Positions 5,703 to 18,865 of a stretch of DNA of 64,000 nt are shown here, in pieces (the stretch's first letter is position 1; every line of letters starts with the position of its first letter). The notes under the pieces were generated by a model. That model saw only the letters and a list, made by a program, of their open reading frames with translations, was not told where the DNA came from and ran no database searches. The stretch is from IMG/VR virus record IMGVR_UViG_3300009428_000006, positions 1 through 64,000 of that record. One strand, given 5' to 3'. The position numbers and the translations under genes were made by a program. Source of the stretch: a virus.

Positions 5703-5996
5703 TTACAAAGCTTTCTTCAAGTCTTTCAAGAACTCTACACCTTGTTCCAGATTAGCGCCTAGGTGTTTCCACATCTTAATATCACTCTCAAGAACTTTAA
5801 TCCTTGCATGCACCACTGTGTCTGACTTGGTGATCTTCTCTAGCTGTCCTTTGTAGAAGACTAAATCCTCCTCCATCTCAGACAGTTTAATACTTTCTTT
5901 CTTAATTTTCCCCTCAGTTACGCCTATGAGTGTACTTAGCATTTGTCGCTTAAGTTGTTTCTCTAGTTTAGCACCTTGCTCTTTGCAATCAGTCAT
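5703..5996 (-). CDS. Coiled-coil protein, 97 aa
   Basis: This small, highly charged protein has long heptad-like stretches rich in Lys, Glu and Leu, suggesting a helical coiled coil. It is the first gene of the leftward replication cluster. Its ATG lies about 50 bases beyond the promoter-like element at 6050-6072, with a short GTGGG...CCCAC hairpin in the leader between them. I recognise no family. Confidence 0.7.
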   Translation of the reverse strand: MTDCKEQGAKLEKQLKRQMLSTLIGVTEGKIKKESIKLSEMEEDLVFYKGQLEKITKSDTVVHARIKVLESDIKMWKHLGANLEQGVEFLKDLKKAL

Positions 5997-11079: not shown

Positions 11080-11727
11080 ATGAGAATAGAAGATGAAATA
11101 ATAGAGCACTGTCTTTATTACCTAGAAGAGAAGGATACTAAAAAGGCGAAGTCAGAGGATTGTTTAGATGTGTTAGCGGACTACCTTGAAGATTCTGATA
11201 TAGATTTGAAATACATCTATCATGAATTACTTGTAATCCACCTCTTAGAGAATTATAAAACTAATAGATTAAGTCTTATGGAATCTATTTTTAAAAAGGT
11301 AAGTCCTAAACTTTATCACGTTTACAAACTTATGAAAAATGGTAAGGAGGTCTATATAGGCCAATCTATAAATGTGTCAGCAAGGCTTAAAAAGCACCTT
11401 GACAAAGATTTCGATGAAATACTTATCTGCCAGTGCAGGAATAAGGATGAGATGGATAATTTGGAGAACTACTTGATTCTAAAAATACTGCCTAAGTTAA
11501 ATAACAAGGTGTTTTTAGACAAGGCAAGGTGTTTTGAAGAAAATCCTTTTTCTTTTGAATTTAAAAAATTAGAAGATCTTGATTATGATTTCATACCTTG
11601 TATGTGGAACGTTTCTAAATCTGTAGATAGTGAGAAATACTTATACAGGTATCCGTATTTTGTAAAGAACAAATATAACATAACACCTGCTTGGAAACTT
11701 AGATGTAAAGATAAGGAAGAAAACTAG
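11080..11727 (+). CDS. GIY-YIG endonuclease, 215 aa
   Basis: The middle of the protein has LYHVYKLMKNGKEVYIGQS near residues 98-116, followed by an Arg-containing helix (ARLKKHL) and an Asn/Glu helix (NLENYLILKILPKLNN). These are the catalytic Tyr, Arg and Glu elements of GIY-YIG nucleases. The first 90 residues are acidic and unrecognised. It is probably a free-standing homing endonuclease, inserted tightly after the palm-domain gene. The start has GAGGA upstream. Confidence 0.75.
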   Translation: MRIEDEIIEHCLYYLEEKDTKKAKSEDCLDVLADYLEDSDIDLKYIYHELLVIHLLENYKTNRLSLMESIFKKVSPKLYHVYKLMKNGKEVYIGQSINVSARLKKHLDKDFDEILICQCRNKDEMDNLENYLILKILPKLNNKVFLDKARCFEENPFSFEFKKLEDLDYDFIPCMWNVSKSVDSEKYLYRYPYFVKNKYNITPAWKLRCKDKEEN

Positions 11728-12392: not shown

Positions 12393-12865
12393 GCTTATCA
12401 TTCAGAGAGGGACTGCACTTTCACAGTTGGGACATTGTGCAAGAAAGAGAATACCTAGATTACAAACATGAGGAAATGGGCTTAACATTAAAAGACAGAA
12501 TACGGGTTTGTAAAAAGTGTGGTAAGACAGAAAAGCTAGACACTCACTGTTTAGGCTTAAATCCGCCAGAGTATGTAGAAAGCTGGCATGAAATAAAGAA
12601 AGACTCTTGGAGGAAAGAGGATATGAGTAAACACAGTAATAAGCTCAATATAACCGAGTCAAAACTGTTTAAAGATGTAAGTAGTGTGATTGGTAAGGTG
12701 GCTGCATTAGAAGAGCTTACAAGGGCTTACAGGGGGTATACTCCTGCATCAAACTCTCCCCCGTTTAATTGGCAGGAAGGACTTATAGACGCATTTTGGT
12801 GGTTCGGAACACCACAAGGTGGCGATTATTGGTATGATATCTGGGAGAAGGGTGCTGACACTTAA
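12389..12865 (+). CDS. Hypothetical protein with possible zinc knuckle, 158 aa
   Basis: Residues 40-52 contain VCKKCGKTEKLD, with a later His-Cys pair, that could hold a metal ion. The C-terminal third is rich in Trp, Gly and Tyr (FNWQEGLIDAFWWFGTPQGG). It is coupled to the upstream gene by an ATGA overlap and is the last gene of the rightward cluster. No function can be given. Confidence 0.65.
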   Translation: MSLSFREGLHFHSWDIVQEREYLDYKHEEMGLTLKDRIRVCKKCGKTEKLDTHCLGLNPPEYVESWHEIKKDSWRKEDMSKHSNKLNITESKLFKDVSSVIGKVAALEELTRAYRGYTPASNSPPFNWQEGLIDAFWWFGTPQGGDYWYDIWEKGADT

Positions 12866-12986
12866 GTAAAAATAATAGGGTCATCTAATCTAAAACCTTG
12901 CAGCTTACATACCAATTTTCAACTGGGATCTTGATTAAAATAGTCAAGATCTTTAAAATAGCTAAACTTTTGTTTTATATACATAT

Positions 12987-13009
12987 TCCTTAAACCGCAC
13001 CTATATGAT
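12987..13009 (+). promoter_or_regulatory. Candidate phage RNA polymerase promoter, rightward copy
   Basis: This site contains TTAAACCGCACCTATATGAT and matches the element at 6050-6072 (opposite strand) in 22 of 23 bases. It lies in a gene-free stretch and points towards the RNA region and the structural genes. Its size fits T7-class promoters. Whether it reads right or left is not proven; outward firing from both copies makes the best sense of the gene layout. Confidence 0.5.
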
Positions 13010-13266
13010 AGGATGATTACTATTTAAACTATCAAACCTAAGTATTTAATCAATTAATTGAATCGAATATGAGAGACTATTCGCATTTCACGTAGACTCT
13101 TTAGGTTATATATTAATACTTCCCAATGGACGATCTGATGCTATTTCATGGATAGCTCATAACAAGAACACACAGATGTTTCATTGGTGAGTAGGTGATA
13201 CTTCAAGTTAATATGGAGATTCACTTTTAGGTGCTTGTTGCTTTATGCCGAGTTACCGAATCTTTC
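13010..13266 (+). other. Non-coding leader between promoter-like element and terminator
   Basis: About 260 bases without a credible ORF or ribosome site separate the promoter-like element at 12987 from a strong terminator at 13267. If the element is a promoter, this would yield a short RNA of roughly 300 bases. No tRNA or known RNA family is recognised. Confidence 0.3.
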
Positions 13267-13312
13267 AACACCAACCTCTAATAATAATAACAAGGGTTGG
13301 TGTTGCTTTTTT
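13267..13312 (+). terminator. Strong rho-independent terminator
   Basis: Perfect 10-bp arms AACACCAACC (13267-13276) and GGTTGGTGTT (13295-13304) are followed by GCTTTTTT. It separates the first non-coding stretch from the candidate structured RNA. Confidence 0.85.
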
Positions 13313-13344
13313 AAGGCCCTTAAAGACATTTGCTATAAGTAAGT

Positions 13345-13746
13345 TTTAATAGTTTATTTATAGCGAGCGTTTCGAGTTGGGTGCGCCAGAGGAGCCATTG
13401 TAGGCCAAGCCCTTTACAGAGGGAGGACTTTACAGTAATGCATAGTAAACCGATGACAGCAGGAAAGACTGCAACTATTTAACAAAAAAGGTACTTAGTA
13501 CCAGATACGACTTACGGCTTCTCACGAGTGATTTATTCACCTGAGATTTGCGATTGTTAAATAATTACCATAATGAGGCAGCCCATGCGTAAAAGTACCT
13601 CAGCAAACCTGTAACAAGGTCGAGCCCATGTGCGGTAATGTGTAATTAGGGATATTTCGTAGCAACGTACCAACTGAGAGAGTGCTACCCAGCAGCTTAT
13701 GCTGTATCAGAGCAAGTCTGATCGAAAGTGGTGGTTGGATTTTTTA
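13345..13746 (+). ncRNA. Candidate large structured RNA, about 400 nt
   Basis: No ORF with a ribosome site is present, but hairpins are dense. Examples are CCCT/AGGG near 13410-13423, GCAG/CTGC at 13459-13472, GGTAC/GTACC at 13490-13502, TGAGG/CCTCA at 13574-13602, ACCT/AGGT at 13607-13620, CAGC/GCTG near 13693-13704, and ATCAGA/TCTGAT at 13707-13722. Longer pairings ATTTAAC/GTTAAAT (13477-13483 with 13556-13562) and TAATTAC/GTAATTA enclose sub-branches. The last branch, CCAAC/GTTGG, is followed by ATTTTTTATT like a terminator. Size and ornate folding recall large phage RNAs such as GOLLD or ROOL, but I cannot match sequence to either. Confidence 0.4.
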
Positions 13747-13847
13747 TTATTAACTTAATAAGTGACTAGGGTAGCTCCCGAAAGGACACAATCACAGCTC
13801 TATGTCTTGTCACTTTATCATCTAGAGCTGGACACTGTGAGGTTAAT

Positions 13848-14384
13848 ATGAGTTTTGATTTAAATTGGCTTTTAACGAGGAAGGTCAGAAGTTGTCCTGT
13901 TGAAAGGCTTTTGAGTAAGGTTGAATATGACAAGAACGGGTGCTGGAATTTTACTGGTAAAAAAGATTCTTGTGGATATGGTGTGTTTAAAATTGGTGGT
14001 AGAAGTTTAGGAGCTCATAAAGTTTCATATATACTGCACAAGGGAGATTTTGATCAGACTAAGTTTGAAATGATGCACGAGTGTCATAACAGAGCTTGCA
14101 TAAATCCTTGTCATATAAAGGTTGGTACTCACAGAGAGAACATGAACTATCCTGAGACTAAAGGGAGGATGGTAGGAAGTAAGTACCGTTTGGGTGATAA
14201 TTGCTATACCTTCAACCTCATTGCTAAAAAAGAGGGTGAAACAATGCTCTTCGGATCTAGTTTTCAAGCTCAAAAGCTAGGTCTATCTAGTGGCAGAATA
14301 TCACAATCCTGCAATAATATTAAAGGAAGACTCAGGTATAGAGGTTTTAGATGGGAGTATAAAGGTACTTTATTGATCACATGA
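13848..14384 (+). CDS. HNH homing endonuclease, 178 aa
   Basis: CWNFTGKKDSCGYGVFKI near the N-terminus is followed by AHKVSY and MMHECHNRACINPCHIKVGT, which gives the H-N-H metal-finger of phage HNH nucleases (His, Asn and His with structural Cys). The C-terminal LSSGRISQSCNN looks like a small DNA-binding module. GAGG precedes the ATG. It sits between structured, non-coding flanks, which suggests it has invaded an RNA gene or intron-like element. Confidence 0.8.
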   Translation: MSFDLNWLLTRKVRSCPVERLLSKVEYDKNGCWNFTGKKDSCGYGVFKIGGRSLGAHKVSYILHKGDFDQTKFEMMHECHNRACINPCHIKVGTHRENMNYPETKGRMVGSKYRLGDNCYTFNLIAKKEGETMLFGSSFQAQKLGLSSGRISQSCNNIKGRLRYRGFRWEYKGTLLIT

Positions 14385-14500
14385 CACTCTTAGAGGACAT
14401 CTCCCTCCACAGGGATATGTGGCGTAGTCAGGATCACGACACCTGATGGACTTAGCTTGAGTCGTGAGACTGCTGCTGAGTTATTTTTAATTAGAATTTA
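14385..14500 (+). other. Structured non-coding flank downstream of the HNH gene
   Basis: Three tandem short hairpins are seen right after the HNH stop: GAGG/CCTC, CCACA/TGTGG and TCAGG/CCTGA, and then GACT/AGTC. With the RNA upstream of the HNH gene this suggests the gene lies inside a larger folded RNA. A TGACTA/TAGTCA pair (13763-13768 with 14424-14429) could bridge the gene, but group I core motifs are not convincing. Confidence 0.35.
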
Positions 14501-14514
14501 ATAAGGAGAATATT

Positions 14515-14589
14515 ATGCATGTGATTAAAGAGGGAAGTTTGACTATCTCTACGGAAGACTTTATTGACAATGGATTTATAGGGGTTTAA
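14515..14589 (+). CDS. Possible 24-aa peptide
   Basis: ATG at 14515 follows AAGGAG by seven bases. The ORF ends with TAA at 14587-14589, one base before the next ATG. Only the ribosome site and tight spacing support it; it could be a leader peptide for the following ORF. Confidence 0.35.
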   Translation: MHVIKEGSLTISTEDFIDNGFIGV

Positions 14590-14590
14590 T

Positions 14591-14710
14591 ATGAAAGTTA
14601 AAGGTATGGATAAACTCTTAGAAGAAGGTTTTGAATGTATTCTTGAAATTGAGAGGCTACTCTGTCTTGTAGATTTTAAACTTAAAAATGGAGAGTTTAC
14701 AGGTCCATAA
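14591..14710 (+). CDS. Possible 39-aa protein
   Basis: The ORF starts MKVKGMDKLLEEGFECILEI and begins one base after the preceding stop, so it may be translationally coupled. It has a Leu-rich amphipathic character. No family is recognised. Confidence 0.35.
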   Translation: MKVKGMDKLLEEGFECILEIERLLCLVDFKLKNGEFTGP

Positions 14711-14786
14711 ATATAATAGTGGAATTAAATGATGATTATGGACCATTGGTTGGAGATGATCAGAGATTGGATTATCTAGGATAGAG

Positions 14787-14877
14787 TTTATTGGTGTGTG
14801 ATAACCATCGGCGTAGGATGACCCACAAGCCCGTGAATATCGATAAGAGTTGTTTTTATTATCACACAACCAATAAA
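14787..14877. repeat. Long inverted repeat, 18/19-bp arms, 54-base loop
   Basis: TTTATTGGTGTGTGATAA (14787-14804) pairs with 14859-14877 with one bulged base. The loop is itself GC-richer than the surroundings. It lies in a 300-base gene-free stretch before the terminase genes. It is too AT-rich and lacks the U-run of a normal terminator. Confidence 0.7.
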
Positions 14878-14944
14878 TTTTAAGCAGTCCTGTCCTCTTA
14901 CGCTTGATTACAAGTATTGATAACAGCCAACTGCTGACAAATAT

Positions 14945-14991
14945 GCCTTTCAAGCCTATCATATGAAGCTCAAATCGTAAAGGCTTTTTTT
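14945..14991 (+). terminator. Probable rho-independent terminator before the terminase operon
   Basis: GCCTTT (14945-14950) and AAAGGC (14979-14984) are followed by seven T. The loop is long (28 bases). It ends the non-coding region, 30 bases before the small terminase ATG, so structural genes would need read-through or phage polymerase. Confidence 0.5.
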
Positions 14992-15020
14992 ATAACAACC
15001 ATAACCTACAAGGAGGAACT

Positions 15021-15590
15021 ATGGCTAAAGCTACTAAAGCTAAAAGCGGTGCTGGCTTTGCAGGTATGGACCCTGAACAAGCAGATGCTATTAGGAAGAA
15101 AGGTGTTGCAGCTAGAAAGCGTAACAATGAAATACGTAATCAAAGAATAGCTGAAGCAGATAAGCTACGTGATGAAGCACAGAGACTTCAAGAAGAGGCT
15201 GAACGTTTAAGGCAAGAGGCTGATGATATAGATGGTGAATACACATCTGATCGTTCTAAGAAGAAAAAAGAGGCTGCACTAGTGGCCGAAATAGATGAAC
15301 GATTCCGTGACTCTGTAAGTGCTCAATATCTCAAGATGATTAAGCAACATGCTATTCTAAGAGGGCTTACAGCAGATGAAATAGTTACACCTTCTATGCT
15401 TGCTATGGATATATTAGCAGATCCTAATACCAAATTGAAAGAGAAGCAGGATGCTCGTAGGGAGCTAATGCAGTTTGAGAACTCTAAGCCTGTTGCTAAG
15501 ACAGATGAAACATCTGATGTGGTTGGTAGTGCGGAGGAGGAGATTGCTAAGTTAATGGTGAAGGCAGAAGAATCTTCTCCTAAAAGATAA
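15021..15590 (+). CDS. Probable terminase small subunit
   Basis: The 189-residue protein starts with a Gly/Ala/Lys-rich segment, then a long charged coiled coil (about residues 35-80), a helical middle (FRDSVSAQYLKMIKQHAILRG) and an acidic tail. The family is not clear by motif. The role is inferred from position: it is the first structural gene, upstream of the large terminase, and has the size and helical, oligomer-forming look of small terminases, which bind the packaging site. AAGGAGG precedes the ATG. Confidence 0.55.
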   Translation: MAKATKAKSGAGFAGMDPEQADAIRKKGVAARKRNNEIRNQRIAEADKLRDEAQRLQEEAERLRQEADDIDGEYTSDRSKKKKEAALVAEIDERFRDSVSAQYLKMIKQHAILRGLTADEIVTPSMLAMDILADPNTKLKEKQDARRELMQFENSKPVAKTDETSDVVGSAEEEIAKLMVKAEESSPKR

Positions 15591-16275: not shown

Positions 16276-17632
16276 TAATGCACTCTCCTCTGGATCATTT
16301 AAACACCCTTATAGTTTAAAGACGGCAAGATGGATAAGAGAAAAACTTATCATGGAGCAATCTGAAAGTAAAAGGTCAGCATTCTTGAAAGATCTTGAGT
16401 CGATGTTTGGAAACAGGTATGCAGAAGTTCTAAGATACATCTCAAATGATATAAGAATTTTTCTCAGAGACGATCAACTGACACCTCCTTACGAAGATAA
16501 GTCTTGGGTAGGGGCTATATGGTGTACAGGTCGCGGTTTCGGAAAGAGTTATTGTGGAGCGGCTGCCGTTATAGAATTTGCTATACAGACACCAAATGCA
16601 CGTATAGGCCTCTTAGGCCCAACGTTTGCCATGTCCAAGCAAAACATGATTCAAGGCTCATCAGGTATATTAGGACTTTCCCCTATAGGATTTAAACCCA
16701 AGTACAATAAAAGTGATGGTACTTTAACTTGGCCCAATGGTGCCACAGCTAAAGTCTTCTCAGCAGAGAATGGTGACCGTGTTCGTGGGGAAAACTTTCA
16801 TCTTGTTTGGTCAGATGAGTGGGCGTTCTTCAAGAGATCAGCAGGAGATGATGATATATGGGACAATGCTAAGAAGGCACTACGTGCTGGCAGGTATCCT
16901 CGATATGTAATAACCACCTCCCCTCGCCCTATAAAGGGTTTGAAAGATCTCTACAAAGACTCCAAAAAAGAAAATTCCAACATAAGATTTACCACAGGAA
17001 CCACCTTTGATAATTATTCATTGCCACAGTCTTTCATAGATGAGGTTAAGCTTGGAGAAGGCACAAGCCTTTATAACCAAGAAATACTTGGAATGATCCT
17101 AGAAGAAAATCTTGGTGCCATTTTCTCATATGAATCCATCGAAAGGATTAATCTTGATGATGTAGGACTTGATCCTGATAAATATGATGAACGCTATCTA
17201 AAACTAGTAAAGTCTATGGACTCTATAGTTGTAGCTGTCGATCCTAACGTGGTTGAAGATATTAACTCAGATGAGACAGGTATCACAGTTGTAGGTAGGA
17301 AGAATGACAAAGGTTATGTATTCAAAGATGCCTCTCGAAGAGGTAAGATATCTGAGATATATAGAGACATCGTAAGACTATATTATGAATACAATGCAGA
17401 TGCTGTAATTATAGAAACCAACAATGGTGGTGACTTTATACCAGCAGATATTTTCAACATCGACCCAATGGTAGTTGTTAAGAAAGTATTTGCATCCAAA
17501 GGTAAACGTGCTCGTGCAGAACCGATTGGTTTACTATACGAGAGAGGTAAGATATACCATGTAGGTATTCATCGAGACCTTGAAGCACAGATGTGTGAGT
17601 ACAATCCACAGGTGCATAAGAAATCGCCAGAT
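16268..17632 (+). CDS. terL: Terminase large subunit, exon 1 (455 codons)
   Basis: This is the packaging motor ATPase and nuclease. Walker A-like CTGRGFGKS is at 86-94. Walker B VWSDEW, with acidic D-E, is at 180-185. The first nuclease Asp is D325 in VVAVDPN, and VIIETNN follows near 380. Translation then reaches HKKSPD and runs into intron sequence, which closes the frame at 17701. Joining D455 to exon 2 gives SPD-RLDSLVWGL, the expected third nuclease motif, in frame and without gap. The joined protein is 524 aa, normal for TerL. The ATG lies within the end of the upstream nuclease gene. Confidence 0.92.
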
Positions 17633-18865
17633 TATGTTATCGGTCTGGTATCATTAGAAATAGTGATAATTGTAATCTCTCTAATGCAGGAACATCCTTA
17701 GAGCTTTAAAGTACTGTTCACAGATAGTAATATACTGTGTTCACCATTTTGTAACGGAAGTGGGTATAGTGAAAACCTTTAAAGATTGGATAACCAATGC
17801 AGCAAAGTCTCTCAAGAAGAGATGGGCTCAACGACTAACACCTTTAAGGTGTGTAGGTTCCAAGTGGAATCGAAACGGGAGACTCTTAACACGTAATGGT
17901 GAAGATGAAGATATAGTCTGACCTTTATGGAAACATAAAGATGTAATAGGAGCATAAATTATGGACAAAGAAAGAGCAATGGAATTGTACCAAAAGGGTA
18001 GTAAATCTTATAGAAGGATTTATCAACTATGGACAGGAGCTTCTGATGATGAAATATCAGGAATGCATATACATCATAAAGATCATGACCACAGTAATAA
18101 TCATCCAGAGAACTTAGAGTTACTTACTCCTGATGAACATGCTAAGAAGCATGGTTTTATTAACAACTTTGTAATGGCGCAATCTAGAGCGGTAGAAAGA
18201 GCTGCACACCCAGAAGTCAGAAAGCGGGTAGCTGAGAAGATCAGGGGCGAAAATAATGGCAGTTACGGAATATCATTTAGAGATCGTTTTTCTACTGAAG
18301 AGGAATATGAAGCTTTCTGTGTAAAATACAGAAGAGGTAAGAACAATTCTCAATATGGAAATGTAGGAAGGATCTCAGGTGACAAGAGTCCTATGAGGAA
18401 ACTGACACCAGAGCAAAAATAAGCTTGGAGATTAAAGATATCAAAACCTGTCACAGAAGAAGCTTTGATCAATTTAAGGGAAGCAGCCAGAAAGCCTGAG
18501 AGAAGAAAAAAGATATCTGAGAAAATGAAGGGTAATACGTCTAACCAAGTGTTTCAAGATAAGATCAGAAACATGGATGAGGTAGAGCTTGAAAACTATC
18601 TTAAAGATAAGAAACCTTCTTTCATAACTTATGTCAACAATCTTATAAATCCTCCAGAGAAGAAAAAGCCATACGTAAAGCCTCCTCCTAAAACAAAGGA
18701 ACAATCAGAACGAGATCTTATACTTAGATTGAAAGCACTTTCTGATGAAGAGTTCCAAAACAAGATAGACGGAAAAGGTAAGAAATACGTAAACAAGTTA
18801 ATAAAATTAAGAAACACACCTATTACAACTGAGGGATAAACTAAACTCAGTAACAAAGAAAAAAG
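17633..18865 (+). ncRNA. Group I intron in the large terminase gene
   Basis: The 1233-base intervening sequence begins after a U (17632) and ends with a G (18865), as group I introns do. Core elements are visible: GGCTCAACGACTAA near 17825-17838 and GAAGATATAGTCTGAC near 17907-17922, whose GACTA/TAGTC pair fits helix P7. The nuclease gene sits downstream of the core, in a P9-side loop. The exon junction is fixed by TerL homology (SPD then RLDSL). Boundaries are therefore well supported, though splicing itself is inferred. Confidence 0.85.
17961..18839 (+). pseudogene. Intron-encoded HNH homing endonuclease with in-frame TAA
   Basis: The gene starts with GGAG and ATG at 17961. The HNH motif is MHIHHKDHDHSNNHPENLELLTPDEHAKKH split over residues 33-62 (HHKDHDHSNN then NLELL). 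TAA at 18420-18422 ends the first frame at codon 154 after LTPEQK. The same frame continues AWRLKISKPVTEEA, then NUMOD-like repeats (REAARKPERRKKISEKMKG) to 18839. A Gln codon (CAA) with C to T change would restore it. Intron homing nucleases often decay, so loss is plausible; the N-terminal HNH part alone might still act. Confidence 0.75.

Follow-up and report, generated by a model that had tools for sequence, protein, structure and literature searches.

A modular RNA locus in the structural-operon leader of a phage, with an int-alpA-family leader as a likely bistable switch

Does the structured noncoding sequence beside the HNH gene of this phage encode one large RNA or several unrelated ones? 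The window, by which we mean the whole stretch of DNA that was analyzed, is 64,000 nucleotides long (positions 1 to 64,000 of a 75,237-base virus record), and in it noncoding sequence (12866 to 13847) is followed by the HNH open reading frame (13848 to 14384), further structured sequence, and the small terminase gene at 15021. A sequence-only reading had described a structured noncoding RNA by the HNH gene, in a leader position before the structural operon, and had likened it to the large phage RNAs GOLLD and ROOL, possibly invaded by the mobile nuclease. Its coordinates, main parts and leader position are borne out. Based on sequence comparisons with other phages, we conclude that the region consists of at least four short, mutually unrelated RNA elements in series and a homing-type nuclease gene, which together form an inserted block in front of the structural genes. 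Our overall reading, to which we give a probability of roughly 0.7, is that the structural-operon leader contains a modular RNA locus, into which the block was inserted, and that E4, the int-alpA-family leader of the HNH gene, is a likely bistable switch. The features of the locus are as follows.

12971 to 13012, + strand: candidate promoter for the single-subunit RNA polymerase that the phage encodes, starting TTTTATATACATATTCCTTAAACCGCACC; function putative, from sequence
13229 to 13257, + strand: E0, leader hairpin with the conserved loop TGTTGC..TATGCCGA, an ancestral piece of the late leader
13267 to 13312, + strand: hairpin and T run resembling an intrinsic terminator, from sequence; holds the final base common to the relative L199 before the insertion
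13312 to 14398, + strand: inserted block (E1, E2, E3, E4 and the HNH gene), about 1.09 kb, without counterpart in L199
13328 to 13475, + strand: E1, structured RNA with a 5' hairpin, several other hairpins, a conserved GCGAGCGTTTCGRGTTGGGTGCGCC and a pseudoknot between a loop and CCGATGAC
13475 to 13566, + strand: E2, structured RNA closed by ATTTAACAA/TTGTTAAAT, with a homologue in phage H101
13564 to 13650, + strand: E3, structured RNA with the core ACCUGUAAYAAGGUCGAGCCCAWGYGCGGUAAUG
13670 to 13745, + strand: branched hairpin with a CCAAC/GTTGG closure, then TTTTTT; terminator-like in sequence and fold
13760 to 13846, + strand: E4, int-alpA-family leader directly 5' of the HNH gene
13848 to 14384, + strand: HNH endonuclease gene, 178 amino acids
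14395 to 14492, + strand: E5, structured RNA 3' of the HNH gene, kept in L199

L199 aligns with positions 12610 to 13311, where the alignment stops at the end of the terminator-like hairpin, and resumes from 14399, with flanks that are 88% and 75% identical; the limits of the block are those of a local alignment of the window with this relative. In place of the block, L199 has 109 unrelated bases, which gave only weak matches (E values of 0.08 and 0.3), and it keeps the structures on both sides, namely, the leader hairpin with the terminator and E5. The order RNA polymerase, leader, terminase is common to Colwellia phage 9A, Shewanella phage KASIA and the L054/L055 phages, all of which have a TGTTGC..TATGCCGA hairpin and a further hairpin directly 5' of the small terminase gene and lack the block; in 9A, L054 and KASIA the E0 hairpin has another stem sequence. 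Counterparts of the promoter-like element lie at the equivalent place in L054 (TTTTATATGGATATTCCTTAAG) and KASIA (TGTATGGATATTACTTAAG), and L199 has a second copy on the opposite strand, compared with just one copy in the window. The block is missing from the more distant relatives too, so the simpler reading of the direction of change is that the window phage acquired it, between the late leader and the terminase genes. The leader itself (12943 to 13313) is near-identical in the window and L199, compared with differences of 12 to 25% in the adjoining genes, which may reflect either strong constraint or recent exchange. Upstream of the leader is another clean mobile-gene site: a GIY-YIG gene (11080 to 11727, + strand) is missing from L199, and its flanks join there almost exactly (11072 and 11721).

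The nuclease gene is of the mobile type, as had been proposed. Its protein matches HNH_3 (E value of 1e-4) and zf-His_Me_endon (E value of 8e-4), both of which fall under Pfam's curated cut-off; no relative of the protein was found in the PDB. The T run noted earlier is confirmed at 13740 to 13745, at the base of the hairpin closed by CCAAC/GTTGG, for which a homologue was searched and none was found. This terminator-like hairpin lies between E3 and E4, and E4 and the HNH gene may therefore sit on a different transcript from E1 to E3.

When phage records are searched with a sensitive DNA method, the region splits into pieces with separate distributions. E1, E2, E3 and E4 are each found singly in unrelated phages, and two modules in one locus were not seen among the loci examined. 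The parts of E4, all on the + strand, are as follows.

13760 to 13766 with 13809 to 13815: P1
13766 to 13783: core
13784 to 13788 with 13803 to 13807: P2, with its loop at 13789 to 13802
13823 to 13830: site 1
13835 to 13840: site 2, which runs into the Shine-Dalgarno sequence GAGG (13839 to 13842)

Positions 13756 to 13850 match Pseudoalteromonas phage TW1, the core also occurs in Acinetobacter, Enterobacter, Halomonas, Psychrobacter and Vibrio phages, and a pattern scan gave at least 120 viral stretches. The same architecture, a core closed by P1 and then P2, is present in 78 non-redundant copies, which were chosen by the core pattern CUAGGNUAGCUCCCGAAA. An alignment of 40 copies has pairing in 95% of its cells and 91 double-change cells, and the covariation score was not reached in any of 500 shuffles, a test in which the copies are partly related; sliding the pairing partners abolishes the covariation. 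A model built from 40 copies without that of the window has a single match in the window, E4 itself (46.9 bits, E value of 1.6e-9). Twelve of 20 E4 loci exceed the Rfam threshold for int-alpA (RF02996), at coordinates identical to those of E4, and the window copy is itself below the gathering score of that family. E4 and its homologues have P1, a UAG, an inner hairpin, CGAAA(A)G and P2 in common with int-alpA, and the P1/P2 architecture with the conserved UAG...CGAAAAG is present. Judged by these sequences, E4 is a divergent member of this known orphan family; the idea that it is a new family was dropped because its homologues match RF02996.

In Rfam, int-alpA is typed as an sRNA and its model has no pseudoknot, whereas E4 appears to be a 5' leader in which the loop has two pairing partners further 3', one of them at the Shine-Dalgarno sequence. 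An open reading frame starts 69 to 106 nucleotides 3' of the core in all 78 non-redundant copies (core to start codon, 72 to 88 nucleotides, 5th to 95th percentile), and start codons at a set distance in 78 of 78 do not fit a free-standing sRNA. This position and the pairing with the Shine-Dalgarno sequence argue for a cis leader and not an sRNA. The genes behind E4 are varied and include DUF1376 (13/75), HNH_3 (11/75), NUMOD4 (3/75) and Rha (2/75) genes. The TW1 leader is 76.5% identical in DNA to that of the window, while the HNH proteins of the two phages are barely similar, so that leader and gene must be exchanged independently of each other.

The P2 loop of E4 is complementary both to site 1, just 3' of P1, and to site 2, at the Shine-Dalgarno sequence. 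Loops form a mean of 5.25 Watson-Crick pairs with their own site 1 compared with 2.95 (standard deviation, 0.17) when swapped, and 5.21 with their own site 2 compared with 3.53 (standard deviation, 0.12); the sites were located by maximizing pairing, with data and shuffles treated alike, and the copies are partly related, so that these figures are not exact probabilities. In the window copy, the loop pairs with either 13823 to 13830 (8 pairs) or 13835 to 13840 (6 pairs, into GAGG). This loop is long (14 nucleotides) and the two pairings have just three bases in common (13795 to 13797), and in this copy they might partly coexist; that the pairings would be mutually exclusive is based on homologues with 6- to 10-nucleotide loops. 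Since the loop coevolves with two sites, the second of which is at the ribosome-binding site, E4 is most likely a bistable translational switch. Translational riboswitches with a pseudoknot that sequesters the Shine-Dalgarno sequence are a known type, and E4 resembles them in its invariant core and in an alternative pairing that reaches the Shine-Dalgarno sequence. It differs from them in that no ligand is known for E4 and that the downstream mobile-element and phage genes have no common pathway.

E1, E2 and E3, for their part, match no Rfam family. Positions 13362 to 13409 of E1 are 94% identical to sequences of Klebsiella jumbo phage N1M2 and of Serratia Petsuvirus phages, and homologues of E1 occur in N1M2/Petsuvirus jumbo phages, enterobacterial prophages, Pseudoalteromonas XI10 and Dasania; pattern scans carry the element into prophages and bacterial contigs. 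Its covariation extends to 23 pairs, including the pseudoknot, with 15 double-change cells and 0 of 500 shuffles as good, in five sequences only. The 5' hairpin varies in sequence and keeps its pairing in most of six copies. An intron end was also considered for E1, since its GTGCGCC resembled a group II start, and was rejected for want of a match or of evidence of exons. E2 (13477 to 13562) has 79% identity with a part of Pseudoalteromonas phage H101 that carries no annotation, and relative to this one homologue it has compensatory changes in three helices.

E3 is far from confined to this phage: positions 13595 to 13648, with bases close by, have matches in 878 phage records, most of them T4-like or Vequintavirus and T4 among them, and a pattern scan gave 26 viral stretches. 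Its covariation is modest, limited to the closing helix and a short inner helix (14 double-change cells, 0 of 500 shuffles), and the window copy keeps the closing helix only in part. In T4-like phages E3 lies 5' of vs.8-type and internal-protein-like genes, often close before genes, and one Klebsiella phage has a second copy 5' of an internal-protein-like gene. In T4 it lies between denV and vs.8. T4 and many well-studied phages thus carry a conserved structured element that is missing from Rfam. A relationship of E3 to the T4 stable RNAs rnaC and rnaD was rejected, because no common core was seen side by side and E3 is located elsewhere. The T4 copy overlaps the annotated 5' end of vs.8 (L058 around 5880 to 5920; T4 record at about 64880 to 64915), and relatives begin vs.8 further downstream than the T4 annotation does, so the vs.8 start may be misannotated in T4.

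The positions of E1 to E3 suggest that they are leader or operon-control RNAs. A rival reading is that they are cis-acting antitermination or polymerase-binding RNAs that would carry the polymerase through the terminators of long late or tRNA operons, like the HK022 put RNA, which suppresses termination by itself (PMC9378689). HK022 put and these elements are alike in being structured cis elements early in phage operons. Both in the window and in L036-type prophages, E1 directly follows a terminator; in the prophages, by our reading of the translations, it lies between a Q-like open reading frame, which adjoins the IsrJ RNA, and lysis genes; in L041, on the same kind of reading, it is just 5' of lysis genes. 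It lies upstream of tRNAs in N1M2 and the Petsuvirus phages, as E3 does in Vequintavirus, so that both elements precede tRNA clusters. Against this, no sequence similarity to E1 or E3 was found in a 16.7-kb stretch of HK022, which may include put, E1 of the L036 group itself precedes a terminator, and this phage has its own RNA polymerase. We know of no put-like RNA that acts on a phage-encoded RNA polymerase. The action of E1 to E3 on RNA polymerase is putative, and we regard this explanation as unlikely, at about one chance in five. In the Salmonella-type prophage L036, the IsrJ sRNA (L036:845-918) is directly 5' of E1 (L036:920-1110), and both follow the Q-like gene.

Structure had also been predicted 3' of the HNH gene, and noncoding structured sequence is indeed found there. 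E5 is probably an H-type pseudoknot (TCAGG/CCTGA and TCACGAC/GTCGTGA), and no homologue of it was found outside L199. Two tiny open reading frames follow on the + strand (14516 to 14590 and 14592 to 14711, about 24 and 39 amino acids), which are partly conserved in L199, the first with a strong ribosome-binding site. E6 (14784 to 14882, + strand) is very stable, and its core recurs behind a tRNA cluster in Vibrio phage K172; its slot is occupied by a tRNA-Lys(UUU) gene in L199. This exchange, together with the absence of the block from L199, makes the leader a site where RNA cassettes come and go. An orphan abiF-type motif (14946 to 14984, + strand), followed by a T run, is 98% conserved in L199 (L199:8000-8040). 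It scores 26.1 bits, below the gathering score of 37, and no AbiF gene was found near it. In the terminase large subunit gene there is a group I intron (17621 to 17940, + strand; Rfam, 74.6 bits), followed by an HNH_3 gene (17961 to 18422, + strand), and the KASIA terminase is likewise annotated as split.

The AbiF-associated RNA neutralizes its toxin (PMC12373285). It is conceivable that the abiF-type motif is a decoy against host AbiF. A further rival reading is that the modules are trans-acting small RNAs or anti-defense decoys that have gathered beside tRNAs like this abiF-type RNA. The abiF-like motif without an AbiF gene, the tRNA-Lys gene in the E6 slot of L199 and the abiF motif directly 3' of tRNA genes in L194, L196 and L197 are consistent with this. 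However, E4 is bound to start codons, E3 often lies shortly before genes, and E1 to E3 have no known target, and we consider a trans-acting role for the modules rather improbable.

The noncoding size, the phage context and the many hairpins had favored a single large, ornate RNA like GOLLD or ROOL, which an invading HNH gene would have split or flanked. The likeness to those RNAs ends with phage context and overall size. cmscan of 12800 to 15050 with E values up to 10 returned no GOLLD, ROOL, HEARO or group I match, only the weak abiF RNA and two chance matches; at Rfam's own thresholds, the sole match is the intron in the terminase gene. The 421-nucleotide block from 13325 to 13745 is not unusually stable (z of -1.28, with 10 of 100 shuffles equally good). 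Folded singly, E1 (z of -2.4), E2 (-3.3), E5 (-2.7) and E6 (-4.2) stand apart from shuffles, and E3 (+0.6) and E4 (-0.2; pseudoknot) have no excess stability. With whole-block stability unremarkable, the reality of the structures is based on conservation and covariation: the comparison of homologues yields compensatory base changes in E1 to E4, and the region is structured RNA and not a protein-coding remnant. The seven hairpins listed earlier came from a single-sequence fold, and that list agrees only partly with the structures backed by comparison. The HNH gene interrupts no RNA and is preceded by its own leader, and L199 keeps E5 while missing all of E1 to E4 and the HNH gene. Together with the separate distribution of the modules in unrelated phages, this makes a single large RNA highly implausible. 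Equally slim is the chance that the pieces are conserved as signals in the DNA, for recombination or homing, as modules common to unrelated phages and the presence in TW1 of E4 without this nuclease gene might suggest, since compensatory pair changes in E1 to E4 and E4 loop-site coevolution require a constraint on RNA pairing; this is largely refuted for E4, and recombination at the modules could be an additional role.

In the modular locus that we favor, the ancestral transcript would have run from the conserved hairpin through the terminator-like hairpin to the terminase genes. The block (13312 to 14398) would then have been inserted after the terminator-like hairpin in the window phage, bringing three independent structured RNAs (E1, E2 and E3) along with a mobile HNH gene and the leader that belongs to it, E4. 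This leader would act in cis: pairing of the P2 loop with site 1 would leave the ribosome-binding site free, probably the on state, and pairing with site 2 at the Shine-Dalgarno sequence would shut translation off, with the invariant core CUAGGGUAGCUCCCGAAA binding a putative signal.

A broader reading, which we offer tentatively and hold at somewhat less than even odds, is that each of E1 to E3 represents a new family of phage leader RNA, that int-alpA RNAs, perhaps forming a riboswitch class not described before, are bistable translational switches in wide use before mobile nuclease, replication and regulator genes, and that the late leader is a docking site that exchanges RNA cassettes, tRNAs and decoy RNAs. 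The orphan int-alpA family gains a testable hypothesis, in which a single loop, pairing with one or the other of two sites, controls in cis how phage mobile genes are translated. If it is true, phage leaders would be a place to find new regulatory RNAs together with the signals that they sense.
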